Assembly: GCA_949130485.1 (NCBI GenBank)
Contig: OX422203.1
Location: 4,555,178 to 4,619,177 of the forward strand
Source of the DNA: Agelas oroides
Lineage: Eukaryota > Porifera > Demospongiae > Agelasida > Agelasidae
Length of the DNA: 64,000 nt
Reading direction: 5' to 3'
The position numbers were made by a program, and so were the translations under genes. The notes under the pieces were generated by a model. It did no database searches, was not told the origin of the DNA, and was given only the letters and a program-made list of their open reading frames with translations. Below are positions 7,703-58,320 of the stretch, piece after piece (positions within the stretch are counted from its first letter, which is position 1; each line of letters begins with the position of its first letter).

Positions 7703-8223
7703 CAGGGTTGTAGTAATTGAGTTCTAGCATGGTTTTATTGATTACAATTACTTGAGCCTGAATCGTCAATTAATACCCATTACAATTACCAAGGTTGCTT
7801 ACGAGTAATGATTACAATTACAGAAAAATGACAGAATTACAAATTACATTGTTAAATTACAGGTCGAAGTAGTCATGAATTGGTAAATGTGCTGACAAAG
7901 CATGCTCTTGCCACATCTTGAACAGCATGTGGTCAGCTGAGTGTGCTGAGTTTGCCATGTTTACACTCGAGTGTGAAAAAGATGTAGAGATGGAGCTTTG
8001 GCAGTCACACAACAGAACAGTTGGGAACGAGGCACCCAAGTATTGTAATTGAACTTGTAATTGGTATTTTACTACCCGCTGCAAACAATTACATGCCTTT
8101 TGTTCAGCATTACAAATTACATCAGTTGTTGTGAAGTGAAATTACAATTACAAATTACTGTGTTTGAAAACCTGTAATGATTACGTAGTCATTACATTTG
8201 GTTTTTCAATTACTACAACCCTG
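7703..8223. mobile_element. 521-bp hAT-type MITE with 8-bp target duplication
   Basis: The ends are perfect 17-bp inverted repeats, cagggttgtagtaattg and its complement. The flanks are gtgatcag at 7695-7702 and 8224-8231, an exact 8-bp duplication that fits the hAT target pattern nTnnnnAn when read as CTGATCAC. The interior is full of attacaattac words and has no transposase. It lies inside a coding exon of gene B, and removing it with one duplication joins SDH to HGKMMHMF in frame. Confidence 0.92.
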
Positions 8224-15063: not shown

Positions 15064-15339
15064 CAAGACTTGAAAAAACATTAAAAATGTAAAAGGATGT
15101 AGGGATGGCATGCCAAAAAGCATGCAAACAAGGTAGGGATGATATAATAGTGAAGGTAAATTTACAAAGCCCTATCCCTACATCTTTTTACATTACAGTT
15201 GCAAACTAATGTGAAAAAGATGCAGGGATGAGGCTTTGTTAATTTACCTTCACTATTATATCATCCCTACCTTGTTTGCATGCTTTTTGGCATGCCATCC
15301 CTACATCCTTTTACATTTTTAATGTTTTTTCAAGTCTTG
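15064..15339. mobile_element. 276-bp foldback MITE nested in the hAT
   Basis: The left arm starts caagacttgaaaaaacatta and the right arm is its complement, ending taatgttttttcaagtcttg. Pairing continues through gtagggatggcatgcc and ggtagggatgatataatag for over 100 bp per arm, so nearly the whole element folds on itself. It abuts the first codons of the readable transposase. A worn partial copy is at 60865-60990. Confidence 0.85.
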
Positions 15340-17224
15340 TATATATACTGGTACCAGTCGTAAGAGTTGTATTTGGAACTTCTACTCGATTTGTGCCATT
15401 GACGAATCGAAGGCCATTTGTGCTACCTACGGAGAGAAAATTTCTAGAGGGGGAAAAAGTGCAAAGACATACACAACAACTAACCTCAAGAAGCACCTCC
15501 ACTCCCGTCATCAAGCGCAATTCAAAGAATTTGAACAGCAGGAGGAAGCTAAAACTGGCGAGGAAGCGAATAAGCAGAGCGGAAGTCGACCTAGCCGCCG
15601 GCAAGTTTCCCTTGAATTTGTTGTAGATAAACATCAACCGTTTGGTTTTGACCATCCAAAAGCACATGAAATTAACAGGTTAGTTGCCGAGCTTATTGCT
15701 GTAGACAACCAGCCATTCAGTGTTGTGGATGATATTGGGTTTAATCGCCTGATTCACCACTTGGAACCAAGATACAAGCTTCCCAGTCGGCGGTACTTTT
15801 CAGAAACTTTGATTCCAAGCATATATGACAAGCTGAAGTTGTTAGTTGCTGAGTTAGTACAGGCACAACAATATGTGAGTTGTACAACGGATATATGGTC
15901 ATCTCCAGTTCATGACTCACTGCTGAGCCTTACTGCACATTTTATTACCAAAGAATTCGAAAGGAGGCAGGTTTGTTTACAGGCAGTAAAATTCAACGAA
16001 TCCCACACTGGCGACAACATTGCAAGCATGATAAATTCATGCATACAATCCTGGGGATTAACAGAGAAGCTAACATCCGTAATCCGAGATAATGCTGCAA
16101 ATTATGTGGCTGGTCTGAGAGATGCTGATATTCCCAACTTTGGTTGCTTAGCTCACACACTGCAGTTAATCATAAATGATGGAGTGCTTGTTCAGCGAGG
16201 TGTTCAAGAGCTGCTCGGAGCTGCTCATAAACTAGTTGGGCACTATAAGCACTCAACTGTATCATTCCAAACTTTAAAACAGATGCAAGCTCAGCTTGGA
16301 GTACCACAACACACCCTTCTTCAGGATGTGAGTACTCGATGGAACAGTAGTTTCTACATGCTACAGCGACTAATTGAACAGAGGACAGCTCTCTTGGCTT
16401 CAGGTGCGGAATGTGCATGCATGATTGAATTACGTGCTCAGCAGTGGAATCTGGCTGAAAAACTAGTTCACCTTCTCCAATCATTTGAGGAAGCTACTCG
16501 TGAAGTTAGTGGTGATTATTCTTCTGCAGCGTTAATCATCCCTATAGTTAACTCTCTCCAGCGATCTCTTACCACTACTGCAGAATCTACTACAGATGAC
16601 CATGGTATCACAAGCATGAAGAGGGAAATGCATGCATCACTCAGTAGACGATAGCATAACATGGAGACAAATAAACTGTATGCATTGGCTACAGCCCTTG
16701 ACCCACGATTCAAGTTGTGTGTTTTTGCTTCAGCGTCAGCTTGTGCCTCAGTGCGGCAGATGTTAATGGAAGAATACGAACAGCTAGCTGAAACTGAAGA
16801 TTCCCTTTCCCTTCCTGAAAAACGACCCCGAACTGATACTGAATCTGGTAATGGTGAAAACACATCTAAATCTAAATCCATGCTATGGACCTACTTCGAT
16901 GAAATAGTTAAGGAGCATAGTTCTGAGGGGCCAGGTAGCACTCCGACAGTTGAAGCAGTTGTTGATGCTTACCTACATGAACCTGTATCTGCAAGGAAAA
17001 GTAGCCCGCTTGACTACTGGAAGCAGAAACAATTGCTGTGGCCAATACTGGCAACTATGGCTCGCAAATATCTTTCTATACCCCCATCCTCAGTCCCATC
17101 AGAACGCCTTTTTAGTACAGCGGGTGAAATTGTGAGTGACAGAAGAAACCGTATTGATCCAGAAAAAGTAGAAATGCTCTTATTTTTGAATAAAAATCTT
17201 AAAATATTTCATTTTAAGTACTAA
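15323..17224 (+). pseudogene. hAT transposase, N-terminus cut and one internal stop
   Basis: The frame opens at 15323 inside the foldback MITE without an ATG. From about 15340 it reads a BED zinc finger: CIWNFYSICAIDESKAIC, GEKISRGGK, TTTNLKKHLHSRH. The second Cys of the finger's first CxxC pair is Tyr here (ICATY). The RNase H-like catalytic region follows with CTTDIWSSP, VIRDNAANY, FGCLAHTLQL and DVSTRWNSSFYM. The C-terminal hAT dimerisation segment includes SIPPSSVPSERLFSTAGE and ends at 17224. An in-frame TAG at 16652-16654 separates LSRR from HNMETNKLYALAT. The frame is otherwise continuous. The protein would cut and paste hAT elements, but this copy cannot make a full product without readthrough or an upstream start exon. 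Confidence 0.88.
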
Positions 17225-32541: not shown

Positions 32542-33599
32542 TTTAGCACATCATTATCATTTTAGCACGTCACCATTATGTATATATGTAAGTGAGTAAC
32601 GAGACTCAAACTGCATCTTTGTTGCTGTACCTTGAGTTAACTCATTGTACGCGGGAGGCAGGAAGACACGGTGCTAGTTCAGGTGATCGCGAGTTTAGCC
32701 GAGGTAGTCAGATATGAAGCTTTTACTCAAACATAGCAAGCAAACAGCCTCCAGTTTTCACTTGAGGTAGGAGTTCTACCTTCAAATAACTTGGAAACTG
32801 GCTTATAAGTTGGAGCTGTAAGTATCCAGTGGTAGAATCATGCCGTTTCAAATTGAGAGTCAGCTACGATGTATAGGGAGTAGAGAAGGGCTTCAAACAA
32901 GTTGAAACAGCTCACTTGGCAGCGATACGCCACTTAGATAAACTAGTCCAGCCTAGTTACGCGCTATGTACACAATTCAAGCCACTGCCCAGGGCTTGCT
33001 AGCACGCTTGTCGACTTTGACCTTCAGACCTGACAACGCTGATTATGGGCAATTTCCGCTTTGCTAAACTGAACGTGTAAATTATTTGCGCGTGCAATGA
33101 GTTAAGATAGCTAGCTAGATGTTTAGCTGATACAGAGTAGCCTCGTTTCCAGGCTAATTGCATATCTCATAACAAGAGAAAAGGAACAGCCAGCTGTGAG
33201 ATAGATCACATGATGAGTAGTTCCCAAAATTGGTTCGAGCCAGTAGAGAAACTATAGGCATGTGCCAAATGTACTTTGATTAGCCTAAGATGGTAACAGA
33301 GTGACCCACTGTATACAGCCTAGATAATGATACTGTACAGGCTCATTGCTACATCTGACATATGATGCACGATTTTAGGACAACCAATCAGTGCAACATA
33401 TTTTGTGAACGTTTACGTGAACACGTAACGTTATCGCACTCCAGGATGTATTTTGTGAACGTTTACGTGAACAAGTAACGTTATCCGGCACTCCAGTATG
33501 TATTTTGTACGTGACATGGGCTATTGTAAACACTTCTACTCATTCCAAGATTGAGCTTCCAACTTGCAGTCTGGGAACGAAACATACTCCACCGTGGCC
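32542..33599. other. intergenic / promoter side of the KDZ gene
   Basis: No coding signal apart from the two flanking starts (32541 on -, 33600 on +), which are divergent. A tagcctcgttt repeat word is at about 33138. A duplicated block at 33389-33505 is listed separately. Confidence 0.5.
33389..33505 (+). repeat. tandem duplication just upstream of the KDZ gene
   Basis: The block tattttgtgaacgtttacgt + gaacacgtaacgttatcgcactccag occurs twice in tandem (about 33399 and 33449), and its first ten bases occur a third time at about 33500. Each unit holds near-palindromic acgttt/acgtga/aacgtt words. It lies about 95 bp before the ATG at 33600. Confidence 0.8.
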
Positions 33600-36500
33600 A
33601 TGGCGGAACCACTCCCGAAGAAGCCGAGACGCAGTTTGCTGCCAGAGTTGGAATCGATGGCCGCCCAGCGAAGTTCCGACAAGCAGGCGATCGGGGTTGT
33701 GAAGTCGAAGCACGAGGAAATGAAGCGTGTTAATCTGGATGTCGTGAGCGGGGAGAGGTTGGAGAGATTGGATGATGAAATTAAAATGTCTTGGCTGATG
33801 GCCAAGTACGGGGTGATGCCTTGTCTCAAGGTCATGGTTGCCATGAAAACGACGTCACCATCACTAACGGAAGGGCAGGCCTGCAAGTATGTATGCAGCA
33901 TGGTTGAGGGTGAGGTGACAAGAGGTGATGCAGCGGCTGTTCATAAGTTCCTGTTAAACTATTGTGCAAGTTCTATATTGGAACAAGTTGAATCCTGTTT
34001 TAGAATGGAAAGAAGGGTGTTGGGGCCTCCAGCCATTAAGTGCTACAGTTGCAGTAGGAGGCTTGTGTCCTACCTCACTACAAATGTGAAGCTGTACACA
34101 TGTGAGGGCGTGAAACAAAGGGAAAAAGTCGCTTTGCAGTGCAAAGAGTGCAATTTGATTTATACTCCGACACAATTTGGCAACAAACACACACTTGGAT
34201 TTGAGTATTATCCTGAGCAGCAACCAGTTGTTGAAGTCACTGATGCAGTTTATTTTGAGAGGAATTTGCTGGAATGGCAGTGCTGTCTGGCGTAAGTGTA
34301 CAGACTAAAGCCAACAGGCTTGGTTTATGCATGCTTGGGTGATCAAAGAGCAAGTGATGATCAATTTAACCCTATTGTGAGTATCTGACTTTGACAAGGT
34401 AGCTTGCTTATCACATCAGTCACTTACCATGATTATTCCATGATAGAAAGTATAGGAAATCAAATCTCGCTTCTGCTAAAACAGATATAGATAAAAATGG
34501 AATTTTTTCTTTTCGAAAAGAGCCTCATAATAGAAGCATTGCAGTCTGACTAGGCTTTCTCAAAAGTGACCTTCGACAGTCTGATCATCTCCCTGTCTGC
34601 CAGTCCTAGTTGTTTTGATATATATACACTCTGACTTACTGACTTATCATGGCGTACGGTAGTACGCCATATGTAGGGATGACCCCGGAAAAAAATGGCC
34701 GCCACATTAAAAGTGCACAAATAACACGCTCGAAATGTCTTCGTTAGATTAGTCAAAGGCCTGTATGAGCCATATCAGTAGTGATGTCAGAGTTTCCAAA
34801 AGTATGTAAATATTCTTCTACACAGGCCATTTCTCCACAATGTCTTAATGTATTCACATCAAATTTGATATAGAGGCTCTTTAGAGGCTTGGGTATATTT
34901 CCTTGCACAGTTTTGTTAAAAATATCTGCCTCGATCAAAACTACACACAATTTTTTGTCACATCTCGCTACTTTTCTGCAAATTGTTGAAGTATTAAGAC
35001 ATTTTGTGATGCTGCTCACAGTTACTTCAATATTCAACAAAGCACAACCAGTTCTGTATACTACAGTAGTTGTCCAATGGGATGGTACAGGTTTTTGATT
35101 GGAACCTTGCTCCAACTTCCCCGGAAATGCAACTATTTATGGCCACAAAATGCCGTTTTTTAAGCATTTATCAAGCCTAGTGCAAGGATTATACTAGATA
35201 TCTAAAAGCCACAACCTTCATTGGACTGAATAGGTACAGACTATCCTTCACAGCGAGTTTCGTTCTGATCGGGCTTACAGCGGCTTCCGGAATGGTAGTG
35301 ACCGGAATATTGCGCTAAAATGACGTAGAAAAAATTTGGCAAACCGGTTACATTTCGAAGACCGTACCGCTTGCTGTATTCACCCAATCTCATTGATATG
35401 GGTACCGTTGGAATCGCCATTTTATGCTCTTTTCGAAAATAAAGGTTGTTGTTGTGATAAACGAATTTTGATTTTCACCCCGACATCGCTAATATCAGGC
35501 ATTATCGAGTGTTTTCATGAGAAAAAAGACTGTTAAGTTTGCTGGAAAGTATCGCTAAGCACCAGACCGGCAAGTCGCCAAAACGGACAAATCGTCTATC
35601 TTCTGACTTTCTTTCTTCTTCTTCTTCTTCTTCTTCTTCTTCTGCCTTTCACCGCGATAGCACGATAACGGCTGGAGCTTTTACAACGATTCAAACGCAA
35701 AACAACAGGATAAATTACTAGGTATTGCACCTACCACTTATCGGTCTAAAAGAAAGAACTCAAACTTGTCGGCGATTCTCAGGTAATCTCACACTTACGC
35801 TAGCTGCTACACGCCATTTTGCTCGAATTAAATATTACTCATAATTACGTCACCAGGGTTCAACTGAGCACGTGGTTTAGTACTTCGTAGAGAAGGTGAG
35901 AATTGAGCGTTACAGTTTGCAAATCTGATTTCGTGGATCAGTTGACGTGGTTGTGCTGCACTTTACATCGAACCCAATATGCATAATGTCCGCAAGAAAC
36001 GAGCGCAGGACAAGCAGAACTACCTGCGAAACAAAGGGGAAAAAAAGGCAAGCGTCCCGGGCCGTAATAATTACTGGAAGGACCCGGCAGGGCATCTTCC
36101 AGGGCGTCCTCCTATGCCTGTTATTGGAAGGACCCTGAGACGAAAAGGGCGTCCTCCCATGCCTGTTATTGGAAGGACCCTGAGACAAAAAGGGCGTCCT
36201 CCCATACCCGTTATTGGGAGGACCCTGAGACCAAAAAGGCATCTTCCAGGGCATCCTCCCATACCCGTTATTGGAAGGACCCTGAGAAAGGAAGGGCAGC
36301 TTCCCGCATATCCTCCCATACCCGCTATTGGGAGGACCCTGAGAAAGGAAGGGCAGCTTCCCACGTATCCTCCCATAGTAGTTATTGGAGGAACCCTGAC
36401 AAATAAAGGGCAGCAGCTCGTATGACTAATTTGAAGGCTGCAAAAGCCAAGCTCAAGTGGTATAGACGGTACTATGCCAGCTAGTGTTTTAACCATCAAG

Positions 36501-39500
36501 TACTTCATATGACTTAGAACACTAGCCACTGATATTCAATTTCAAGTTTTATTGTCAACTTTCACATTTCAAATTTGCTTGTTATAGTCATTTACATGCA
36601 TATAGTACACATACAATGTTTACTGCGAGTTGATGGTAGCACTTTGGCCGGTGTCTTCTTAACATCCTCCTTTTGTGTTGTGCCTGAGTCTTCATATTCC
36701 TCCAACGAAGCAAGTGGCAGCCTATTGGTAGCTTGGTATACTCAAACTCTAGTAGCACCGAGTCAACAGTGCATGGCTTCATTCCAAACTTCTGCACTAG
36801 AGGTGGCCACAGAACTGGCGGTTGTTCAGCTCCACAGACCCCTATGCATTCGTTTCAAACCGATTTAGACTATAGCTACCCACCATGCATCAAACAGTTC
36901 TGTAATGGGGTCTTACGACTCAATACTCTGGTGACAGTCTATGGAGGGTTTTTCGGTGAACCCATTAGTAGTCCACGTGAAATGAGCACAGGATTTATAA
37001 GCTTGCATGCAAAGCCTTATTAAACTCATCTGCTTTTCACTTGGTTTTTATGAGGCTTTGCTTGGACTGTACTTCTAAACCCCCCGAAGTTTGATGTTTG
37101 GATTGACGATTTCACTTCAAAGCGTTTGAATTTATGACAATTCTTAGCTCTTTCTACTATCATACTGTACATACCATGCATCTTCCCCTCGGCCTACCCT
37201 CCCATGTCACTTCTCTCTTACCATTCCTAAAAAGCAATACAAAAAAAAAAAAAAAGAGCAGGAACAAGTCACAAAAAAGTTTTCTGAATGAAAACAAGTG
37301 CATGTAGGGATGGAACCCTCAAAAACCAACCAAACTAGATGGGAATGACACCACAACAATTTCACACCATCCCTACATCTTGTGCCATTTTGCCAACTAT
37401 GCACACCAGTAAACTCTCTAGCCTATTCACACCCACTAAATGAATACTAGCTGTAGTTAGCGCTGCTCATTCCACAGCCTTTTACATAAAGACAATCCAT
37501 ATCTGCCATGTTCAGCAGCAATAAAATTTCACACCATAACTTACTCCAACAGACCCAGCTCATGCACTCGACAGTTTCTGCATTCAAGACTAGTCTCACA
37601 AGCCAGACCCTTTCCGTTCCACAGTGCAGATCGCTTTCAGTATCGGCACGCAGAGGAAGGCACTAAGAATCGTCATAAATGCTTTGAAGTGAAATTGTAA
37701 ATCCAAACATCAAACTTCTTCCCTCTGTGTGCCGCATACTGAAAGCGATCGGTGCTGCGCAGAAAGGGTCTGGCTTGCAAGACTAATTCAAGACAGACCA
37801 TACCTGCCATTCTCAGCATAGCAACTACATCACAGCCACCCACAACATAACTCACCCCCCATGCACATCAACATGCACTCCACACCCAGCACTACCCATC
37901 CCACTGCCTTCCACAACCCTCCTATGAACACAACTAACAAACACAAAGCATAGTTGGCAAAATGGCACAAGATGTAGGGATGGTGTGAAATTGTTGTGGT
38001 GTCATTCCCATCTAGTTTGGTTGGTTTTTGAGGGTTCCATCCCTACATGCACTTGTTTTCATTCAGAAAACTTTTTTGTGACTTTATATATGCACTTTGA
38101 CTTAATGACTTACAAGAGCTTCCTGGTGTACTCATAAGTGATCCCAGACCATCAAATTTCATATAGTGCCATGGTGATGGTTTTGCCAACTCTGACCTAC
38201 TCTGCTCTTATTTTGTAGCAACCGCTCATGGGTTTCTTTCCAGGGATTTGCAGAGGCATACAATGACACCTTCATGTTACCCAAGGAAACAGGTAAGGTT
38301 TATGTACATTTCAGAACTATAGATCGATATGACTTAGTTTTTTTGTTGCTGGTTTCAATACAGAACTGAGTCCAAAAGTGGTTGCAACGGCATTTTGGAG
38401 AGGGGAAGTAGAGAATGAGCTTCGAAGAGTTGGGATGTGTGATTTCAAATTTAAGGCAGACACTGACTATGACAGGTGTATGTCAGTGATTGATGAGTTA
38501 CGTCGAGAGTCTATTTATCCCCATCCACCTTCTGATTGCACTGATGACTGCAAGAAGAGAGGTTAGTAAAAATAATATCATGTACACCCTTTCATTTGAT
38601 TGTATTGTTTACTAGTCTAAACTCCATCCAAGATGCTCCCAAGTTAGCTACACAAGAGTTTAGTGCTACAGGTAGTTTAGCTTAGCTAGAAGGTTGCCAT
38701 ATAGAGTTTAAGGGTGGTGCCAAACACGGTCGACCATTAAGAGAAGTAAGACATGCCTTCACACAATAGTAAGGTGGCGTCAACACTAGTGTCAAGCCTG
38801 GGAACAAGGCTAGGTGTCGCTAGCACAAAATCACTGCCTACACTAACAAATGAATAAACAGTAACATCACTTTCTTGGTAAGACCACATGACCATGACAC
38901 CACTCATGCAGTTCTCATCAGCACCTATATTCATGAACCTTTTATTTACATGTTGAGGTGTACAGTGTAATATGGTATTTGGTTTGGTATTCAGTTACAG
39001 TGCACAGCAGGGAGCTTGTGGTTATAGTTGTATGGCCATTGCTGCCCTTGATTTAATTAGTACCCTGTAACCATAAACTCTGAAATTGACAGTTCACACT
39101 TACCAGGAGTTTACACTTATTCATAGGATGTGGGAAGCTGTGGGTGACAGATGGGCTGTGGAAGTTGAACTTTTCCCACTGCATGTACCAAGTCCAGGTG
39201 CGCCCTTTATGTTTTCTTAGTTTATTTTTGATTGAGAAGAGTACCTAAATCTACAGCACACAGTGGAAGGATTGCCAGTGTTGAATCTCCCAGATGTGTG
39301 TACCGAACACCCTGCTCATGGTCAGGCCTTCTGTCATGAGCATTGTGAGTTCCTACAGCAACAAGCTCCAGATGTTCCCACTGGTTTGCGTGACTTCCTG
39401 CGGTTCTGTGGAGCTCTAAATGATGGTAAGTACTTGATTGTAAACGTTTAGAGTGAATATGGTGATGGCATCCACAAAAGTAACCCAGCAAGAAAGAAAT

Positions 39501-40669
39501 GACATCCCCCCTTTTTCGTCATCCCTATATCTTGTGCCTGTTTTCCACTTGTTACTGTCATTTTTTGTTGTTGGGAAGGAGTGGGCTTTACCATTATCAG
39601 CTGCAACAGATTGTGCTGTATTGCCTTCACATAGAGTTTTACAGTGGTCTTAGCTACATATATAACTGCTTCTCCTGATGTGGTTGGGAATGTTTGCACA
39701 CTCTTAACATATTGACAATGCTGACCAAACAAGTGTTCCCATGGTAACAAGTTATGTTTCATGCATGATGTGGTTGGGAATGTTTGCAGCTTCTGAAGAC
39801 ATTGACCATGCTGACCAAGATAAAGTAGATACAGCCACTACCTCTTTGCCAACAAGTACTGGGATTGGAACAACAGCTGCTACTTCTCAAGGTATTGTAA
39901 TGGTTCTCTGTTACCACCTTTAAATGGGAAAAGTTTTGCCAGGCTACTAAGGCAACTGAACATTTGTTAAATGTTGCAGGCATTTCACAGCTGGTGAATC
40001 CAGAGATCTTGCCTATGGCTTCTTTGTCTGATCAGTCTGGAGAGCTATGCCGCAAAGACACAGGTTCCAAGAAGTTGAGAAAATGGTCACGGGGACATCA
40101 GTTTGTTGTTCGTGGAGGGGGTCATATTGATGCCTGGCAACCCTTGTACAAGTGAGTATGTAGTCGTTACATCATTGGTGACCCCTTCACATTTTGACGC
40201 TAGATTTGGTTATTAATTTAGTAATTCATTTCACAGATCAGAGTCACCTTCTCAGGTCTTTTACATACTTCTACAATGGCTACTGTCACTTGTTCAAAGC
40301 ACAGGGGACACTCATAACATGCCTGAAGTGATCTTAGCATATGACAACATGTGTAATCTTGCCAGACTAAATGCTGCCAAAGCACCACTTCCCTTCCCTG
40401 CACCACTGGACCAAATGTGGTTGAAGATAACAAAGATTATTGACACATTTCATTTAAAGAACCACATTAGTGAGAGTTGCAGACGTCAATTTTCACCTGA
40501 AAGAGTGAAGCAGCAATATCCTCACATGAATACACAAGTAGGTGAACAGACCTTTACATGGTTGTATCACTTTAAGCATATTTTATGTTCCATGCCAAAA
40601 GTTCACCATTTGTTTTATTTGCATCGGATGGTTGTACGGCGAAACCCAGTATACTGCAAAATGCTATAA
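33600..40669 (+). CDS. KDZ-type transposase gene with cysteine cluster, 8 exons
   Basis: Exons 33600-34291, 38219-38292, 38364-38561, 39127-39197, 39257-39425, 39790-39891, 39980-40151, 40237-40669; all GT-AG, all phases match, 636 codons. The start is chosen at ggccATGGCGG. Residues 148-184 form a Cys cluster (IKCYSC, TC, LQCKEC) like the CxC modules of KDZ (Kyakuja-Dileera-Zisupton) transposases. FANRSWV-like and GFAEAYND segments follow across exon 2. The catalytic triad is visible: D330 in WVTDGLWKL, D529 in LAYDNMCNL, E596 in NTQVGEQTF, with DTFHLKNH in between. KDZ enzymes are RNase H-fold DNA transposases. The last codons look frameshifted: one extra A near 40660 gives KML-stop, whereas the other frame reads KCYKYGKKP to a stop about 30 bp later. 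No terminal repeats were found, so it may be domesticated. Confidence 0.85.
34779..35491. mobile_element. 713-bp insertion nested in repeat copy B
   Basis: Copy A shows the empty site (gccatatcaggcatta). In copy B atatcag is present on both sides (34772-34778 and 35492-35498). The tips tagtgatgtc and gacatcgcta are 9/10 inverted repeats. It carries a 120-codon minus-strand frame of unknown nature (from about 35115, SNQKPVPSHWTTTVVYRTG). It resembles a non-autonomous hAT-like element, or captured sequence. Confidence 0.8.
37267..38084. mobile_element. foldback element, second copy
   Basis: Same roughly 130-bp arms as 2808-3889 (gtcacaaaaaagttttctga ... and the complement ending ttttttgtgac). 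The middle is shorter and includes the nested element at 37591-37785. Confidence 0.75.
37591..37785. mobile_element. 195-bp MITE with 9-bp target duplication
   Basis: The tips tagtctcacaagccagaccc and the complement gggtctggcttgcaagacta face each other. attcaagac occurs at 37582-37590 and 37786-37794, an exact 9-bp duplication. That length suggests a Mutator-like family. A second member is at 52505-52788. Confidence 0.88.
39676..39735 (+). repeat. duplicate of an exon boundary in a KDZ intron
   Basis: The stretch gatgtggttgggaatgtttgc + acactcttaacatattgac is a diverged copy of 39767-39826, which spans the acceptor and start of exon 6. In the copy the acceptor cag is cac, so it cannot be spliced the same way. 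Confidence 0.75.
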
Positions 40670-41991
40670 GTATGGCAAGAAACCTATTTTACCTAAAAAA
40701 TAAACATTGACTACAGTTTGGCAATGCAAATCATTTCATCCGTATATATACATCACACTGTGTTCACATCGTAGTTCCAGATTTCCCTGACTTTCGTGAT
40801 ATGAATTTTTGCATGACTATACTTAATAATGTGTGGCTCATCCCATTGGCCCTTAGGCCCAGGGCGCAGCGCGCACGGTACGACGCCGTTCCACATGCAA
40901 GTCGCACAAGAGAAAGATAGCTGGCGACTGTTGCCCTCAAGCCAGAAGAAAGTCTGAAAGGGGATACATGATTTACAGTGTGTTGTCCGGTCGTTCTGCG
41001 ATTGAAGAACAGGTACGTACGTCGTAGTAGTTACAATTACAGTCGTGTGCATTGCTGTAATAATGCTCTTTCATTCATGATGGCTGGTAAATGCCAGACA
41101 TCGTAGCCCGAACAATGTAGCATAAATAACAGATCAGTGTACACATGTAACTCTATAGCATGACTCGTGCATGGAAAACAAATATGACAGCCGCAATCGA
41201 CAGCCGTACACACAACGTGTGAATGTTCTAACGCTAGCCGGTGGGGATAGATGCGCGGATGCTGACCCAATAACTGTCCTGCATGTTCTCGGGATGCAAA
41301 GTGAAACAGCTAGCTACACACGGCATGGACAGAAGGATACTAAGAGAATGTTTACTTAGCTATGTGGCCCGTTCACAGCTAGTTGCGCGACCGTATAGCT
41401 ATAGGTGCGCGGAAGGACTAATTTAGTAAAGTGACTAAGTATGGTCGCAACCGATGCTCGAAAGCACTTACAGGATTTGTGATCAACAAAAATTAGTACA
41501 AGTAGTAGTAGTAGGAGAAAAGTATACTCAGTAAAGAGAAGCGGACTTTTACGGACGATACAGAAATTGTCCTAGTAGCTAGCTAGCATGCAGTTGGTAT
41601 CTGTTCTGTAGATATTGAGATTTGCAACACCAAAGCCTGTTGAAACTTGCCAGTAACCTATTTCATGCTGGTACATGCAGACGTCATGGCACAGCCACAG
41701 TTGAAAGTGTAGTGCCATGCAATCATATGCAACGACAACAGATTATGCACAAACCACTAATCTGTGATTGTGAGATACTATTGTAGCATAACTTATACAG
41801 ATGATGTAGCTATATGACATATCCTTATAACTATCAACATACAGTGACATGGCATCAGTGCATGATAAAAATGTGCTAACAAGTGCATGTACCAGGTTGT
41901 ATTATAGAGGTTCAATCACTAGTGCACAACAGGGCTAGGTGGTCTAATAACTCAACCCCCCCCCATAATGTGGTTTTGTGATAACAATAGG
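40670..41991. other. spacer between the KDZ and P-loop/PHD genes
   Basis: Apart from a candidate minus-strand exon (40753-40995) no coding signal is seen. There is a short tag-rich run (agtagtagtagtagg) at about 41500 and a c-run at 41955. Any promoter of the downstream gene should lie here. Confidence 0.45.
40753..40995 (-). CDS. possible terminal exon with CxxC pairs
   Basis: The minus strand has an acceptor-like tcgcag before AACGACC at 40995, then 80 codons to a stop. It reads THCKSCIPF, SFSCATCMWNGVVPCALRPG and IHITKVREIWNYD. The spacing of two CxxC pairs and a later Cys recalls small zinc-binding domains next to transposon proteins (DUF3716-like, uncertain). No upstream exon was found. 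It would converge with the KDZ gene. Confidence 0.35.
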   Translation of the reverse strand, partial: NDRTTHCKSCIPFQTFFWLEGNSRQLSFSCATCMWNGVVPCALRPGPKGQWDEPHIIKYSHAKIHITKVREIWNYDVNTV

Positions 41992-44900
41992 ATGTCTCAC
42001 AGAAGGAGGCTGTCAGTCCATAAACACCAAGTTGGGTATTGGAAAGGATATGGAGACAAAAGCGAGTTTGTGGGTCTGACAAACTTCAACTTGGAGTTGT
42101 GCAAATTTGTAGAGGCTCCTCCTGCTCTGCCAACATTCAAAGGGTACATTGCAAAGGCAATGCAACTTGGACGCAAGCACCGCCTTTGTGAAGGGTACGT
42201 TAAATATCAATTCAATAGTATGTTATCATAGATGATGCATGAATAAATGCACTAATGTGGTGTTTGGAACTGAAGCCTGTTTCTAAGTATAGGATACGCC
42301 AGAGGACCCAAACTTGTAGCTATCTCTTATAACTGCAACTGCCTGAGGAAGAAGCACCCTCTTACCTGTTAAAGCAAGTGTTAATCAAGCTTGCTCTAAG
42401 AATTAAGTAACCAGTAAAACCAAAGCTTCAAATTGGCTTTTGTAAAAGCCACAACACTGGCATTTAAAGCGTGTTCTAGGATTAATTTAATTTATACTTA
42501 TACATGTAAGGACTAGGGCAATACCAAAGGGGGTGCATCAGTGAGTGTTAGTGGTACATGCAGCATGAATGAGGGAAATGTGCATGCAGGGGAATTTTCC
42601 CCATACACCACCACCACACAATCCCATCACATAGAATCCTGTTGTAGTTCCCAAGAAGCTATACAGTTCAACTTGGTCATATAGCACTTTGCTATTGTAC
42701 ATAGGGAATGCTTTCTGCCATGGTATCACATTGAAAACTCCAGAGACCTCATCAGGCATGTTGGGGTTGCATTCCCTCAAAGTACACTATTCTGCAGGCT
42801 TTCAAATAGTCAGCTCCAGACATACATGCAGATGATATGGGAAGAGTAAGTTTCCATGCGTACAGGATTATTGCTTGTATATATGTGTTCATCTGAGGTG
42901 CTAATGCCTTTCAGATTCAAGGACAACTCACTTTCATCATCCTCTGAGTCCGATTCAGATGGGGAGGATACTCAGTATGCTGGTTCCAATGCACTCAAAC
43001 CTGTTGTGTGCTTGGGCTGGCAACCTGGTTCAGATGTCTTTGTCCTGGGAGAAACGCTTCAGTTTCGCAGCACTGGAGAAATCATTTCTCCAGATGAGCA
43101 ACAATACGTTTTCATCCGTCTCATTTTGGAAAAGCTAGGAATGGCCAACACAATCCGCCCCATCAATACACTCCCAGATATTCCAAACCCTCTCTACACT
43201 GTCATGGAGGGTATACATAAAGTTGCCGGAGATAATCACATCTGTGCTCTTTTCTGTCTTGGTAGGTATTGGAATTGCTCTGTTACTAAATACAGTAACA
43301 TATGCTGAACAGCATAATGATAGAAACCAGAGTAATATTTATGTACACACAAGCTATAAAATTCTCCATTTAAAAACTACAAGGTTTCCATCCGTTTTGT
43401 TCAGAATATCTTGTTTCAGGTAGAAATAAAGACATATTGATGCTATGATGCAAGAATAGAGTAGTGAAAACCCAGCAGTCGCTGAAAATGGAACCCAGGA
43501 TAGAGATACCAGTGCTCTACAACTAACCTACAACAACCAGACAACCATGACACACACCAACTTTCTCAATGTGCTGCACAGGTGGTACTGTATGCTTCAG
43601 TTGTGAACTCGGTAGCGTGGCATCAGAACTCTGTTAAGGGTTCACTGGGAAAAATGTCTTCACCAGAAATGTCCCTTTTTCCAAATTTAATAAACCACTC
43701 AGCATGGGTTGTCTCCTGATGGAGAGAATTTTCCAGTCGAAATCAGCACATATTTGTTGCATGTAGTTTCACTGTCAACTTCTATCACGGCTTTTAATCA
43801 GGTGTAAACATGATGCAACAATAATCATAGATTACACCCTCCTTGCAGGTTGAGTGCAATTAAAGTGTATGTGATTTCATCTAGGTAACATACTACAGTA
43901 ACCACTCAGGATATAGTCCATATGTTATTCACGTTGACACTGTTTGTATACTTCAGCTGGGGCTATACTCTCCTTACACTATGAGTCGGTTAGCAAGCGG
44001 TGTGGGAGTGTTGCAGTACCCGTTGTCTATGGCCGTCACAGCCGGGGAAAGAGCAATTTTGTGAAGATTGCGTTGGCTGTCTGTGGCAACCTAGAGAAGG
44101 GTGTGGCTACTTACCTGAGTGCCAGCAGTACTCGTACGAAAATGGGAGCATCACTTCCGTTTGCCTATGACGACCCAAGCAATAGTGAAGCCAAGTTTAA
44201 ACAAATGATAATCGAGGCATTTGGCGGAGCATCAGTTGAGCATGCAAGGCATCAGATGACAGCTCGATGTGTCCCACTGATAACAGCAAATGAGTTCATC
44301 ATAGATAAACTCACTGCGGATGAACCAAGGTAAGTGTAAAATCTCACACTGTACTTCAATGCCATGTCATAAACATGGAAGCTTTTAATGTATCACCGTG
44401 CATAGTTGTACATTACAATCCATTTGTCTCTCATCTAAGGTACCTGAGTAGGTGTCTCTTGCTACCATGTGTCACTGATTCACCAGATGTTGAACTAGAT
44501 GTGCTGAATGGAATACTGAACAAAGCAGTGGCAGCTCTCCCACATGCCCTGCGGGTTGGGAAAGCAGTACTGGAAATGGAAGCAGATGACATCTATCACA
44601 TTCGTGACCGCATACAGGAATTATGCACCGTGAAGCTCACAGACTCACGTCTCACTACTCACTATGCCATCATAACAGCCTGCACCTTGCAAGTAGGTGG
44701 TTCTTTCAGTTATGTTGGATGCAAATTTGTGCTTTAGCTACATATTATTCCCTTGTGTAATGAAGTGACTACTTGCATTGCTGCCTTTGTAGATCATTGA
44801 TGAAGTCCCAAATGCTAGCGTGTCCAAGGAAGATGTGTGGGAATACCTACAGGAAGCTTTGCTGCCCGAAGTTGCAAGCAGACAGGTGCAGCAAACCAAG

Positions 44901-47900
44901 CCAACATCATTGGAGAACATGTTGGGGGTGGTAGCAGATCTTGTGGATGACAAGCATGCCACACTTTCCCTCCCCGAAGTGAGATCCTACTTGTACTAGT
45001 TACTGCCACATTATGTATGATTGTGCATTGGATTTCCACTTGACCACCTTGGTGCAAACAGGGCATAGTACTTCAATGTATCCTCCCAAAGCATGACTGC
45101 ACTACATAACATGGACTAATGCCCACTTGTAGGTTTTGACAGTTGTGAACCCTCGCGTGAGATTTTCCCCACGTCGAGGCATGCCCTTGATAAAGGGTGT
45201 GGCTGTGTCTCTAAAGTTGTTTCTGAAACTGCTGGAGAAGCATGGTATTGAACACCCAGAGGAAAAGGTTATTCGTCAACAGCTTAGCCCCCGCCAAGAT
45301 GCCACCACGAGGTCAAAATCATTCTTCTTGAAGAAAAATGTTAACCTCACAAGGATTGACAGAGGTGTGGCTGCGGGTGGATCAACTGTACCCCTGACAT
45401 GTGTATGTGTCTCGCGACAATGCATTTCACAGAACACGTTGGACATACTGATGGATAATAAAGGTATTATGTGGTGAATACAAGTAAAAAATTTCCTTCT
45501 CCAATGCTGATCATGTTATGACTACATGGCAGAGGTGTATTAGCTACTTCTGTTACAAAGCAATTCTTCTCACTTATAGTGCAAACTGCTGCTGATGATG
45601 ATGATCTTGAAAAGAATCTAGGAGGTGATAGTGAAGATGAGGATGGTTCCATGTCAGGTATTTGAATAAGAAACATGTGGCTTAGGGAGGGAAGGGTGGG
45701 AGGGGGGGGGGGGGGGGGGGGGGGTTGTGTTATGCTTAACTAAGGTGTACACATGTAGCTATGTGCTTTGTAATTATGCACACACAATGATTTTAATATT
45801 TTGAGCGTACAATGAACAATATGAGAAATCTTCGAACTTCATCATACTTTTTTCAACATTTTGACCCTGAGGGGCCTTCTTCAGGCAATACAATACTGGG
45901 CACGCATTTTACTAAACATATGTGAAAGGAAATACACTAAGTATGATGAAGTTTTGTGCATTCAAAGATTGCTTACTCACAAATATCTGTGCTTACATAC
46001 CCGTACAATCTTCAGCCTGAGAGACTGGTTGTTTGAGGTCTAGACAAATTGGAGAAGTTTGTGTTCTGTGCTCTATTTGGTCAATGGCAACCAAAACACT
46101 GCAACAACTGCTTGTTGTCACATTCATGAAAACTGAAATATGTAGCCCTTGTATGTAAATCTGTTTTTTACTGTGCATGCTATATAAACTATAGGGCAAT
46201 ACAGGAGAAGGAAAATCTCTCTAATTTCTGATGAAGGATTGACTGAAAATGAAGCTGGAGACACTGATTATTCAATGACAGGTACTACAGAATGCATGCA
46301 TAGTTACGTATATTTATACACTACACCTCATGAAGTTGTTGCTCTTGCAGAACATGATAGTGATGGTGAGGAGAGCGGACAATCAACTTTGACCAGCCAC
46401 AATCAGCCCCAGGTGACCAGTAGCAACTGGTTGCTCACTTCTCATGCTCAGTCAGCCAGCCAAGCCTCTACATCAAAGTCATCTACTCAGTGCACACTAC
46501 AAACCTTCTCTCCTAAACATACCAAACAGAGGAGATATTTAGTGTCATCTCCATGCAGGAGGGGTTTGATAAGGTACACTGTTAATCTGCAAGTACGTGT
46601 AAAGGTGCATGCACTACCTTAAGATCTATGTTACATTTTTGACTTTGTCAGGCAACGGACTTCACCTATGACCAAACAGTTGTTCAAACCTGTTCAGCGG
46701 CACCTAAAGAGGAGAACTACAACCGGTATGACCACATCTGTATTGATTAAATTGTTTTTGATGGACGTAATGGGTACATTAGTTACACCTAGCAATTCTT
46801 CTGTCCTGTGTGCCCAGGAAAACCATCACCGAAAAAGGTTCCAAATAATTCCAGTGGAGCTGGCACTGGCTCAATGGCAGGTACCAATAACCAGTAATAT
46901 TTAGTATCTCTTGTAACTTTTATTAACGTTTCCTTTCTCACACAGCTTTGGATCATGGCAAGTCAACCACCTGTGCCCAGATGACAGTAGAGGCAACCCA
47001 ATCAATCCAGTGCCAGGCCCTTGAATTTCTACCAGCCAGTTGCTCTCAGCCTCAGACTCCTCCACCTCCGCTGACTAGCAACACTCAGCCCCAGACTCCT
47101 CCATCTCAGTTCACTAGCAACGCTCAGCCCCAGACTCCTCCACCATCGCTGGCTAGCAACACTCAGCCCCAGACTCCTCCACCATCGCTGACTAGCAACA
47201 CTCAGCCCCAGACTCCTCCACCATCGCTGACTAGCAACACTCAGCCCCAGACTCCTCCATCTCAGTTCACTAGCAACACTCAGCCCCAGACTCCTCCACC
47301 ATCGCTGGCTAGCAACACTCAGCCCCAGACTCCTCCACCATCGCTGGCTAGCAACACTCAGCCCCAGACTCCTCCATCTCGGTTCACTAGCAACACTCAG
47401 CCCCAGACTCCTCCATCTCCAATGGCCAGTACCACTCTTCCCAGTTTTCGTAAATGTAGCAAGAAGGTGACGTCATATGTGATTGCATCTCCATCTAGGA
47501 AAGTGCTCATGAGGTATGCATACAGAATAGTGATTGATGACAACAATACAAAGGTTTGCATATACATAACTGGGTTTTTTTGTGTGTAGACAACGACTTT
47601 CTCCAAAGAAGGCAACACCCACAAACACCATAGTCCATCCACTGCGCCGTCGCCTTAGATTCACAAAGAAGAATGCAGCAGGTAAATATTCAGCGGTGTA
47701 CAGTTACTATAGGGCATGCTGATTTCCTTGCATTAGCAGTATGGATTTGTCTTCACAATAATCACAAACTGCAGTGCATGCGTGTGCCTGAATTAGCACT
47801 AAGTCTTCTTAAGATAGATTTCAAAATACGTTTGCTGCCTTTTTTTTTTCTTATTTAGCATACCTGAATAAACTACGAAACACTGCGAAGGACTTGGATA

Positions 47901-48138
47901 ATGGGAATGATGGTAAATAAATTTAATATCCATGTATAATACAGTATGATTGTCCTTCACTGTGTATTACATAGAAATCTGGCACTGTGGGATGTGCCTG
48001 GCCACATATGATGCAAGTGAAGAAGATTGGTGGGTGGAGTGTGACAAATGCTCCTGCTGGTATCATTCTATGTGTGTGAGGCTAAGAAGAAATCCAGGAG
48101 CTCGGAGGTGGTTTTGTCCAGCCTGCAAGAGACATTAG
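41992..48138 (+). CDS. P-loop ATPase with C-terminal PHD finger, 16 exons
   Basis: Exons: 41992-42194, 42798-42845, 42915-43261, 43957-44329, 44440-44692, 44793-44978, 45133-45463, 45580-45657, 46195-46281, 46351-46573, 46652-46725, 46818-46880, 46946-47513, 47590-47681, 47859-47912, 47975-48138. Every junction is GT-AG and in phase; 3144 nt, 1047 residues. The start MSHRRRLSVHKH leads into FNLELCKFVEAPPALP, as in coral proteins I remember. Walker A is GRHSRGKS (225-232), followed by LPFAYDDPS as Walker B-like acids (271-272), PLITAN (306-311) and RYLSRC with a possible arginine finger. This layout is like DUF927/superfamily 3-type helicase ATPases. The middle is acidic, then basic, with a 13-aa TQPQTPP-type repeat. 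The last exon is a PHD finger (WHCGMC, CDKC, WYHSMC, WFCPAC), a histone-tail reader fold. A chromatin-targeted replicative or transposition ATPase is an inference. Confidence 0.8.
45702..45724 (+). repeat. 23-base G run in an intron
   Basis: An uninterrupted G homopolymer preceded by gggagggaagggtggga, in the intron after exon 8 of the P-loop/PHD gene. Length may be unreliable in the assembly. Confidence 0.85.
47041..47430 (+). repeat. 39-bp coding repeat in the P-loop/PHD gene
   Basis: About ten units of actcagccccagactcctcc + accatcgctggctagcaac, each coding 13 residues (TQPQTPPPSLASN type). Every unit keeps TQPQTPP with one TP site. Two alternating variants (PSL and SQF) occur, so blocks have been copied. 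Confidence 0.92.
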
Positions 48139-48871
48139 TTCTAGTGCGTAGCTACATAACTAACTGCGTTTTTTCCTTGAGTTGTGTTCTGCTATAGTTA
48201 CCATGTTAATGTCACAGCATATATTGTTTACTCATCTATATACCCATAAAGCAGGACATGCGCTTCTTCATATTTACATAATGGTTTTGCAGTTTCCCTC
48301 AATGTCATGAGATACTGAAGAAATGTGGAATAACGGAATAATTGAACAATGGAATAAAAAAGTTGCAACGTTATTGCTGCTGAGAAGAGCAAGTATGCAC
48401 ATTACAGAAGTGAGTGACAATCTGTTGAATACAAAAATACTGTATCGACTGCGCACATGCAGAGTATCCACATGTCAAGCCACACCCCTTCACTGAACTT
48501 CAGTCTATGGTCGTCAGTTGCTAACTTGGTATCAGTTTGCCTTGGTGAGTTCACAGAGAGAAGCTATACTCATGCCAACTGGTACACTAAAGTTAGATGC
48601 GGCTCTGAAAGCCTGACTGATGCAAATCTGTTGTGGGCTAAGAATTCTTGCTGGCAAAACTTTTATGTAGGATGCCGCCAATCTGTCCACTGCTGTTTAC
48701 CTGGGTAAGTGGTAATTGTCGAGGACCTTAATAGAACAAGGGTACTAACCTTACAGCACAGGCGAGTAATGCAGACTTTGATAGGCAGTTATGTAGCTAG
48801 CTAGATATGTATAATTGATGAATTAATGTTATACTGTTGTCCTAAAAGCTTGACGACTTACCCTCGATATA

Positions 48872-49350
48872 TTCCCTTGATGTGAACACATTCGCTTCAT
48901 GTGAACACATTTGCTTCATGTGAACATATTTCCTTCATGTGAACATATTTGGTTCATGTGAACATATTTGGTTCATGTGAACATATTTGGTTCATGTGAA
49001 CATATTTGGTTCATGTGAACATATTTGGTTCATGTGAACATATTTGGTTCATGTGAACATATTTGGTTCATGTGAACATATTTGGTTCATGTCAACATAT
49101 TTCCTTCATGTGAACACATTTGGTTCATGTGAACATATTCCCTTCATGTGAACGTATTCCCTTCATGTGAACACATTCACTTCATGTGAACGTATTCCCT
49201 TCATGTGAACATATTCCCTTCATGTAAATGTATTCCTTTCATGTGAACGTATTCCCTTCATGTGAACATATCCCCTTCATGTGAATGTATTCCCTTCATG
49301 TGAACGTATCCCCTTCATGTGAACATATTTGATTCAAGTGAATACATTGT
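48872..49350 (+). repeat. 19-bp tandem array (about 25 units)
   Basis: The unit is ttcatgtgaacatatttgg, with blocks of variants (…atattccc, …gtattccc, …acattcgc). The centre (48950-49090) is almost pure, the edges are diverged. Confidence 0.95.
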
Positions 49351-50403
49351 GAGAACACATTCCACTTACATAACTATGTTGCCGTCATGTGAACGTATTA
49401 TTTCAACATGTTTTCTTCATGTTAAGATGGTCTACATTACATGTAGCTTTCTGAACAAGAACTGTTAACATGTTCTGGCCATGTATTTCAAGTTACACCT
49501 CCTAGAAATGTCCTGCATAGTACACAATTTTGATGAACACTCTGCAGTGCATTTGAATCAGAACATCATTGTTCACGTGAACGTTCACATCGTGTATACT
49601 GCAGAAAACGTCTCCTAAAATCGTGCATTGTATCACATCTGAATATAATAATCCACTTACATAGCCTATATAGGTCACGCACAATGTAGCTGGTACGACA
49701 GCTTGCAGCATATGTAATAAAAAAAATCACAATGATAGGCAGCTGTACCTGAAACAGCAAAGATGAAATACCCCTTGGGCTTGACTTGCTCCCAGAAGCA
49801 TACTCTCTTCACTAGTAGGGCAGCACTGGGCGTGTAGGCTCAAGCCATTATGAGCAAAGTATGGTGGACACTCTGTCTTCTTCCAGCCACTGCACGCATA
49901 CCATTTTCAAACCCGTCTTTACGCAGCTGCTTTTAATCTTCAGTACACAGCCGTTTCGCCAGCGTACAACTTCCGCCAATTTTAATTTAGCCACGCCCAC
50001 CCATATTGAGTCACCAAACGAACGCCTGAAATGAGCAAGATTCTTCGTGCGACTGTGATGTACTATATCTCGGTGGTGGCACCACTTACTGCTGCTTTAC
50101 ACGCAGGGCATATGAAGGCGGGTTTCTACAGTCCAACAAAGCAGGTACAATTTTGCTACCCACCTCATAGTTGATACCACTGCCGATCTCGTACAGCTCC
50201 TACGAATCACAGCTAAAAAACATAGTGTAAACTGTCCTCTCCAACAGCGTTTCGCCAGCTGCATTCAAGTCAAAATTTTGCATACTGACAGTAGATTGTT
50301 AGCTCAATTCTCATCCTCAGAAAGTTGTTGTTCTGGCCATTCTTCGGGTCGTTTCGTTCGCTCAAAGTTGACCCCAAAATTATCACACATGAACCACACA
50401 AAT

Positions 50404-56489: not shown

Positions 56490-58320
56490 AACTTATGTTC
56501 TGCCAGCTCCATGTCCCTGTCCAATGCACTTAACACCATGATACTGGCCTGCAAGTGATTTTGGAATTAGTCATGTGAAAAAACGGTTTCCACAACTTTT
56601 ATTTTGTAAAGGGTACACGTTTTTACACCTTCATGCACGAAAATGTTTTCTGGTGTAACGCAAGGCTTACAGCGGCGCTGGCGTTGGTGAGGTGAAATAG
56701 TTTCCCATGGTACCAAGAATACAGCACGCATGCAGTATTTAAATCAAGTACTCTGTTAAAATTGTTGTGCAATATTTTAGCGTACGCTTATATAGACCAG
56801 TACACATATCGATATACGTACGTATCTCGACTATTTAACATGTGATCTTAACATGTGATCTTACTAGCGGGAATTTTTGCAAGCATAAGTTTTTGGAACA
56901 ATGTGCCAGCCGGAGTGGTGCTCCCCCATTCAACACACAACTTCTTAGTTATCTGTAACTGTAATAGGGAAGTGCCGCAAGAGGAAGCGGATAAAAGAGC
57001 ACTCAGTCCGTTATAGATGAAACATCATCACCATGTAGATACTTCTAATGGGTGCTATAACCTTTCTCTGATACAAATACAAAGTGAGATATATAAGACA
57101 ACAAAAATAAATGCTGACTAAATGCAGTAAGTAATTTTTTCAAGACAGTTCATTCTGGTACAGTCTGTTTTATACATGTGGTAACCAGGTAAATTACATG
57201 CATGAACCCCAATCTCTCCTGCACTTTCCACCTGGTGGTCATAGCAATAGGCATATATAGCTGGACATATGATTGGCGCTTACAACAAGTGGTCCATCTC
57301 TGTGTCTGGTACTCCATATCTTCTATGTAGCAGTGTGAAATAGCATGGGAGCTTGAATTTCCACCTGGAGCCTTACAGATAGACCACCCTTCGCTAGCAT
57401 TCACTGTCTGTGTCACAGCATTCCATTTCTGTTTGGAATGATCCAGCCGGCAAGCTGTTAGTGACACAACCATCGAACTGTGGTCTTCTCTGTCCTCTAA
57501 TGTTTGGTTATTCAGTAATCTCTCAAGTAGTTCTTCCCAGTGAGATTGATTGTGTGCTGTGACACAGTCTGCCGATTGTGGTTGTTTTATGTACCGTCCG
57601 GCACGCAGCCATTTGTGGTCACCCTCCTCACGATTACAAGGCTTTAGTTTCAGGGGTCTTCCAACTTGATTGGATGATAGGCAGAGGGAGGACTGTACAT
57701 GCATGATTTGGTTCTGCTTGGTCCACTGCCAGTACTTCCCAAGTACACAAGTCTTGCACTCCGTCAGTACAATCTTGTACAGTCCCTCCCTTAGCTGGTT
57801 ACTGTTTCTGTTTGTTCTCCCGTCTGTTGCGCTTTGCACACCCATACACAAGTCAGTTTTGCTGTTGTGGATGAGAAACGCTCCAATAGGAATGGTTTCC
57901 TTGGTGGTGTTATTCTTGATGCTCGATTCAGGTTCAGGTGCTATAGGAAAGTGAAATCAAAAATGTATAAATGTTTATTGCTTGTGCACATTCTCAAAAC
58001 AGTAAATTCTTTTAGGCAAAGCTAAAGACATGAGTTGCTCATGCAGATGCAGACTATTTTAGTACAGCTGTATTGCACTTACTCAAAAACCTATCAAATA
58101 CATAAGGCACTCGAGCATTTGGCCACATCAGTTGAGAGTACCATCCTTCTCCTACCCTCATGACTGCCCTTCGCAGTTTGTACTCAGAGCTATCTCTCTT
58201 GATATCTGGAGAGGAGGATCCTGGAGGGCGCCCCAGACCCGTCCTCAGCAGCTCCTCTACTTGACTGTTGCTAATAATGTCCATTTCCACCAGACAACTG
58301 TTCATCTCTGGAGGCAAGGC
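56490..58320. repeat. segmental duplication, copy 1
   Basis: Matches 61550-64000 in the same orientation, including non-coding sequence (ttctgccagctccatgtccc at 56497 and 61560). Copy 2 holds about 700 bp (about 61810-62660) that copy 1 lacks. Confidence 0.85.
57150..58319 (-). pseudogene. astacin-like start plus R-type lectin domain, copy 1
   Basis: Exons 58319-58083 and 57940-57150 join in phase (A + CA). The first carries a propeptide-like part (LVEMDIISNSQVEELL, possibly the aspartate-switch region) and RRAVMRVGEGWYS then WPNARVPYVFDRFL, the usual beginning of an astacin (M12A) metalloprotease domain. The zinc-site HExxH region is not encoded. The second exon reads GAFLIHNSKTDLCMG, LGKYWQWTKQNQIMHV, SSLCLSSNQ, LKLKPCNREEGDHKW, like the ricin-B/R-type lectin trefoil seen in mannose receptors, then a Cys-rich tail. 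Compared with copy 2 there are two extra bases near 57270, so the last about 45 codons are in a different frame. A possible signal-peptide exon (MKATLLFATRVFLL) starts at 58592. Function as a secreted lectin or protease is inferred only. Confidence 0.6.

Follow-up and report, generated by a model that had tools for sequence, protein, structure and literature searches.

Results

The window analysed here, a stretch of 64,000 nucleotides from the sponge Agelas oroides (contig OX422203.1), carries two multi-exon genes that lie 1.3 kb apart on the same strand, one encoding a KDZ transposase and the other a P-loop ATPase with a C-terminal PHD finger. When rebuilt from the sequence, the KDZ gene comprises 8 exons (33600-40669, + strand, 636 amino acids) and the ATPase/PHD gene 16 (41992-48138, + strand, 1078 amino acids), both with GT-AG introns and open to the stop codon, which confirms the neighbouring genes with 24 exons described in an earlier sequence-only reading of this DNA. 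A repeat scan detected an inverted repeat around both genes. They are flanked by a 22-bp terminal inverted repeat (19/22 matching) and an exact 8-bp target duplication, ACATCTGA on either side (33351-33358 / 49635-49642), so that the element spans 33359-49634 (16,276 bp). When window segments were paired at random (267 pairs), the highest-scoring repeat beside an exact 8-bp match had 15 matching positions. The features of the element, each with its basis, are as follows.

33351..33358, no strand: target site duplication, left copy (ACATCTGA); identical to the 8 bp at 49635-49642
33359..33380, + strand: left terminal inverted repeat; 19/22 match with the right end
33399..33508, + strand: left subterminal 50-bp direct repeat, 2.2 copies, four GTGAAC sites; repeat scan
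33600..34291, + strand: KDZ exon 1 (CxC5 cysteine cluster); gene rebuild, Pfam
34648..38093, no strand: stretch of KDZ intron 1 unaligned with C1:5785 (nested repeat); alignment, repeat scan
38219..38292, + strand: KDZ exon 2; gene rebuild
38364..38561, + strand: KDZ exon 3; gene rebuild
39127..39197, + strand: KDZ exon 4 (presumed first D, VTDG); gene rebuild, motif comparison
39257..39425, + strand: KDZ exon 5; gene rebuild
39790..39891, + strand: KDZ exon 6; gene rebuild
39980..40151, + strand: KDZ exon 7; gene rebuild
40237..40669, + strand: KDZ exon 8 (presumed second D, AYDN, and E, GEQTF; tail out of frame); rebuild, copy comparison
41992..43261, + strand: ATPase exons 1-3 (41992-42194, 42705-42845, 42915-43261), conserved N-terminal part; rebuild, genome matches
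43957..44329, + strand: ATPase exon 4, with SRGKS, YDDP and TANE, which we take to be Walker A, a Walker B-like motif and a sensor-like Asn; alignment
44440..47912, + strand: ATPase exons 5-15, with a coding 39-bp minisatellite near 47045-47415; rebuild, repeat scan
47975..48138, + strand: ATPase exon 16, C-terminal PHD finger; rebuild, Pfam
48869..49329, + strand: tandem array of a 19-bp unit with ATGTGAAC, ~24 copies, iteron-like; repeat scan, unit comparison
49613..49634, - strand: right terminal inverted repeat; repeat scan and comparison of ends
49635..49642, no strand: target site duplication, right copy (ACATCTGA); exact match to the left copy

Independent insertions and class of the element

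The window element and the large copies named C1 and C2 share the same termini and have three different exact 8-bp duplications (AAATCGCC in C1 and AAACACGA in C2). Shared terminal repeats and duplications outside the genes, which the sequence-only reading had proposed as a check, are present in all three of these insertions. A second family has other termini (left end CAATTGCTCCCGGATTTGCGAACG). Its 3.97-kb deletion copy, C13, has GCCGCGAG on either side, and in C3, a fuller copy, both termini enclose both genes, with no duplication. Altogether, a target duplication was seen in four of the six copies with both termini. It is next to certain that the two genes and the termini constitute one mobile two-gene unit. 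A 1.4-kb stretch elsewhere (C1:29370602-29371986), with both window-family ends and no matching duplication, is likely a non-autonomous derivative.

The unit belongs to the KDZ transposons that make 8-bp duplications. Its terminal inverted repeats and 8-bp duplications (four of six copies) fit the Zisupton or Dileera branch; 8-bp duplications are reported for Zisupton (PMC12730594) and for Cryptococcus KDZ1 as well (PMC12810828). The window-family termini, CATATG.../...GTATC, and the 8-bp duplications differ from those of the Kyakuja branch, for which a 7-bp target duplication and CA..TG termini are described (PMC12730594).

Association of the two genes in the genome

The neighbourhood of the two genes, scored within this one genome, recurs far above chance. 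The ATPase core gave 78 genome matches in 51 loci, and 12 of the 16 loci with at least 36% identity have a KDZ exon upstream, on the same strand and within 15 kb, whereas 2000 random placements gave 0.048 such loci on average and never more than 2. The conserved N-terminal part of the ATPase (115 amino acids) gave 23 matches in 16 loci, every one of them 0.26-9.9 kb downstream of a same-strand KDZ exon; six of these loci descend from one insertion, leaving 11 when it is counted once. Searches with the KDZ exon returned 94 matches in 75 loci, two besides the window at 97% identity and the others at 33-68%, and a downstream ATPase was detectable at 21 of the 75 loci overall and at 18 of the 31 with at least 54% identity. 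We fetched 20 kb around 10 of the 75 loci, a non-random selection made by identity, and found ATPase sequence downstream of KDZ on the same strand in all 10, as exon 1 only in C13.

The two genes stay together even across families with 30-60% protein divergence. Moreover, KDZ and ATPase distances over eight copies are correlated (r 0.91, a value to which near-identical copy pairs contribute; C2, C17 and C13 were left out, the core being missing or out of range), and 19 of 40,320 permutations gave a correlation as high. The sequence-only reading had suggested a transposition or silencing unit; termini, duplications, independent insertions and the 12 of 16 neighbourhoods (permuted mean 0.048) strongly support transposition, and silencing is unsupported. 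Head-to-head arrangements of KDZ and ATPase sequences at C4:4005831, C10:4603467, C1:9840174, C7:3848280 and C5:506318 with C5:496025 were dropped because at two of the five loci one partner already has a same-strand partner.

The KDZ transposase

The window KDZ protein contains the CxC5 cysteine cluster (PF18718, E 3.9e-12). YDN and GEQTF are kept in all 11 copies compared (the window and the 10 fetched), and VTDG in 10 of 11, the exon bearing it not being found in C13; we take these motifs to hold the D, D and E catalytic residues. The full triad and cysteine cluster claimed for this gene are thereby borne out. The profile of the KDZ core, PF18758, was not reached by the window protein, and no window exon is among its 34 genome matches. 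Its cut-off is passed by C2:16485508, C5:501314, C9:2770 and C21:4698628, and we assign the window protein to the KDZ core because these intermediates are 45-51% identical to it.

Within KDZ intron 1, ~3.4 kb of the window is unaligned with C1, which has ~0.5 kb of other DNA there, and the C2 copy likewise has extra DNA in this intron. The window insert holds a 137-bp perfect inverted repeat (37266-37402/37948-38084).

The ATPase and its relatives

ATPase cores linked to KDZ in five families are 42-46% identical to the window core. When aligned, they share RGKS, YDDP and an Asn that follows a hydrophobic stretch; within these motifs, five KDZ-linked sequences agree without exception in the Lys and Ser (RGKS), both Asp residues of the DD pair and the Asn. 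The PHD finger of the window protein matches PF00628 with E 3.9e-5 and 24.0 bits (cut-off 24). Such a finger was found in the window, C3/C9, C5 and C22 families: PF00628 is above its cut-off in the window, C3 and C5 families, and in C22 PHD-1st_NSD is above its cut-off with PF00628 just below. Exon 13 contains the coding 39-bp minisatellite (47045-47415), with QPQTPP units, whose copy number varies among the window, C1 and C2 copies.

For the ATPase core, the members tested stayed below the cut-off of every Pfam and NCBIfam family. The DUF927 profile reached E 0.062 with the window protein and 0.36, both below its cut-off, and Pfam gave no DUF927 match for the C3 core or for the remote homologues L049 and L058, which have a similar core and no KDZ exon within 25 kb. 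Thus of the SF3/DUF927-like core and PHD finger ascribed to this protein, the finger holds and the DUF927-like P-loop remains weak. The best PDB-chain match for each of three alignments was 5dgk ("Active helicase"), with E 3.3e-5 when one remote homologue was included, 0.004 with two, and 0.054 with the five KDZ-linked rows only. The aligned part of the P-loop core runs from Walker A past Walker B; L049 alone, compared with all PDB chains, gave nothing up to E 10. We take 5dgk to be the Cch helicase of a staphylococcal cassette element, and judged from these alignments kinship of the ATPase with DUF927/Cch helicases is likely.

No relatives outside this genome were found in viral contigs (ATPase alignment and KDZ exon), in phages, in prokaryote genomes (two peptide patterns) or in PHROGs (best E 0.66). 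Five remote homologues of the ATPase core, L049 (C6:10166300-10167450), C19:697473, C19:1222144, C7:10403215 and C11:8711062, have long open frames, are near-equal matches with no KDZ exon within 25 kb, and are possibly the motor of another mobile element.

Arrays near the ends

The array of 19-bp units sits in the stretch that separates the ATPase stop codon from the right end, with ~24 copies in the window, 39 in C1 and 50 in C2. The C3/C9 family has a 60- or 52-bp unit at the corresponding place, and C5, whose right end was not found, has 4.2 copies of a 49-bp unit downstream of the PHD exon. TGTGAAC is common to the arrays of all three families and has one orientation in these six copies; a motif of this type also occurs at the left end of the window element, in the 50-bp repeat. 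Eight shared bases were observed with the window unit and seven with the C1/C2 consensus, and of 20,000 trials with shuffled units, 25 reached at least seven when the same strand was required and 52 when any strand was allowed. No such array was detected in the C20, C22, C17 and C13 stretches, of which only that of C13, the deletion copy, includes the right end.

Copies, recent activity and selection

The window, C1 and C2 copies are ~1% apart in coding sequence, which suggests that the family was recently active. In C1, KDZ exons 1, 3 and 4 are interrupted by insertions of 1, 4 and 4 bases, respectively, and C2 is missing ATPase exons 3-6 together with the first part of exon 7. Pairwise ratios of nonsynonymous to synonymous substitution (dN/dS), a check that the sequence-only reading had proposed, were below 1 in nine of 10 comparisons (0.24-0.58 for the ATPase; 0.19-0.73 for KDZ, apart from one pair that reached 1.4), with only a handful of changes behind each value. 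The persistence of reading frames and active-site residues at 30-60% protein divergence is the stronger argument for selection.

Six deletion-type KDZ copies (C20:62022, C10:50401, C12:9424083, C5:11625272, C18:50793 and C13:9157066) are 98.5-99.6% identical, five of them within ~65 kb of contig ends and C13 at ~92 kb. We count them as one insertion because of this identity and a common right flank; they look as if that insertion had been spread by chromosome-end exchange.

Other genes in the window

Outside the element, a hAT transposase with a BED finger and a hAT dimerisation domain (15323-17224) is split by a stop between 15323-16654 and 16655-17224, which are in one frame, and a DUF6589 match (5938-7769, - strand) consists of two consecutive open pieces. 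The claim that other transposon genes of the window are broken, checked for hAT and DUF6589, fits the stop in hAT; the two DUF6589 pieces may mark a break or may be exons. A ricin-type beta-trefoil lectin domain (PF00652) lies in an open frame at 57150-57956 (- strand). Rfam gave no matches in the window and two C13 loci.

Discussion

Our results favor a cut-and-paste transposon of the Zisupton type that has a P-loop ATPase of its own, which would work at the ends of the element, an explanation that we consider the best one and reasonably probable. The DDE transposase would cut at the terminal repeats and insert with an 8-bp stagger. The second protein, a putative DUF927/Cch-like P-loop ATPase, would gather on the TGTGAAC arrays near the ends and spend ATP on remodelling or unwinding the DNA there, and could in this way aid the transposase in pairing and processing two ends that lie 13-20 kb apart. 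Its PHD finger would hold the complex on chromatin with a particular histone H3 mark. For the action of the ATPase at the element's own ends or arrays we see about an even chance, and for PHD-guided targeting somewhat less than that; tethering of a transposition complex to chromatin by the finger, as the sequence-only reading had it, is plausible since the finger occurs in four families.

Several observations weigh against this explanation. Exon 8 of the window KDZ gene is frame-shifted over its last ~19 codons relative to all 10 fetched relatives, so that the claim of splicing without a phase error fails at this point: after the conserved ...LHRMV.RRN block, a short unrelated tail replaces the ...CY..G[KR]KP[IV]LPK tail that all 10 relatives conserve. 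The catalytic motifs lie upstream of the shift. Two of the six copies with both termini, C3 and C1:29370602, are without a target duplication. No KDZ exon lies within 25 kb of 4 of the 16 close ATPase loci, and among the 35 weaker ATPase loci only 2 are preceded by a same-strand KDZ exon. Conversely, these queries found no ATPase downstream at 54 of 75 KDZ loci, or at 13 of the 31 with at least 54% identity, which limits any claim of a required partner; at those loci the ATPase may be dispensable, diverged or lost. No tested member scored above the Pfam cut-off of DUF927, the similarity to a helicase is weak when remote homologues are left out (5dgk E 0.054), and structure prediction of window ATPase exon 4 alone gave a mean predicted local distance difference test score (pLDDT) of 37. 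In C23 (L037/L038), which is closely related to C5, an array of the same 49-bp unit follows directly on a broken ATPase core in the opposite orientation, and this copy is therefore taken as rearranged. Finally, the dN/dS values rest on few changes each, and one comparison in 10 exceeds 1.

The main alternatives concern what the ATPase does. The element could be a replicating transposon: in the manner suggested for staphylococcal islands, an initiator helicase would bind iterons just downstream of its gene, open the excised element and have it copied by host polymerases ahead of reinsertion. The closest solved relative is indeed a helicase, 5dgk, and in three families the ATPase gene is followed by an array. 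A Rep of staphylococcal pathogenicity islands (SaPI) is related to the DUF927-containing Cch, and SaPI Rep recognises a short-repeat (iteron) origin directly downstream of its own gene (PMC7581432). However, the helicase similarity is marginal, neither protein has a primase or polymerase match in Pfam, the C23 array is inverted, and the left-end repeat with the same motif (33399-33508) suits end binding equally. Arrays near transposon ends can also be transposase-binding sites, and we regard replication of this kind as unlikely. The same holds for the possibility that the element moves by cut-and-paste and in addition contains a module resembling a replicon, made up of an initiator-type helicase that bears a chromatin-reading PHD finger and of an iteron array next to its gene. 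Once excised, such an element might be duplicated, or have its ends remodelled on chromatin, and then reinsert; if true, a eukaryotic DDE transposon would have a motor of its own, following a Tn7/Mu/IS21-like logic with unrelated parts. An ATPase encoded next to a DDE transposase and joined to a conserved chromatin reader would also suit a target selector, in which the ATPase, like TnsC, MuB or IstB, picks and marks target DNA while the PHD finger reads histone H3 to bias insertion, and dedicated AAA+ partners of transposases are described, with IS21 as a model (PMC11208146). This role is rather doubtful: TnsC, MuB and IstB were absent from the PDB matches up to E 10 with all three alignments, and a bias could not be shown from only four insertion sites with duplications.

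Alternatively, the ATPase gene could be cargo, a passenger unneeded for movement, as may hold for the TET/JBP genes in fungal KDZ elements, since accessory genes such as these are known to be carried by KDZ elements (PMC12730594; PMC12477816). The 54 of 75 KDZ loci without a downstream ATPase fit this reading, as does the C13-type copy, which lost the core and yet has an exact target duplication. That copy may, however, have been mobilised in trans, or have lost the core after insertion, and retention with parallel divergence across five families, together with the invariant ATPase residues, makes a mere passenger quite improbable. Two host genes that are neighbours by chance, for which their many exons and open frames might speak, are refuted by independent insertions of the whole unit: the pair is multicopy, terminal repeats and target duplications accompany three insertions, and virtually no likelihood is left for this reading.

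Compared with Zisupton/KDZ transposons of fish, fungi and algae, the element described here adds a conserved P-loop ATPase/PHD gene and TGTGAAC arrays. It resembles the TET/JBP-carrying fungal KDZ elements in combining a KDZ transposase with a partner gene, but there the partner is a dioxygenase, whereas neither protein here has a TET/JBP dioxygenase match in Pfam. With Cch/DUF927 helicases (5dgk) it shares an aligned P-loop core and tandem repeats downstream of the gene; it differs from them in being eukaryotic and intron-rich, with a PHD finger and a DDE transposase alongside, and the similarity is marginal and helicase activity putative. Tn7 (TnsC), Mu (MuB) and IS21 (IstB) likewise unite a transposase and an ATPase partner in one element, but without detectable homology to the present one, which is eukaryotic and has a PHD finger. 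No ATPase/PHD partner appears in the titles and abstract openings of the Zisupton, KDZ and DUF927 papers listed, a scope outside which most subscription journals and Repbase fall, so that a prior description is possible; the word "ATPase" has no occurrence in PMC12730594, PMC12477816 and PMC12810828.

In conclusion, the presented data point to an ATPase domain family whose tested members all score below the Pfam and NCBIfam cut-offs. Should the ATPase belong to the transposition machinery, a eukaryotic DDE transposase would be working with a dedicated motor ATPase, a division of labour that, to our knowledge, is familiar from bacterial elements only. The PHD finger would, moreover, make target choice by histone mark directly testable.

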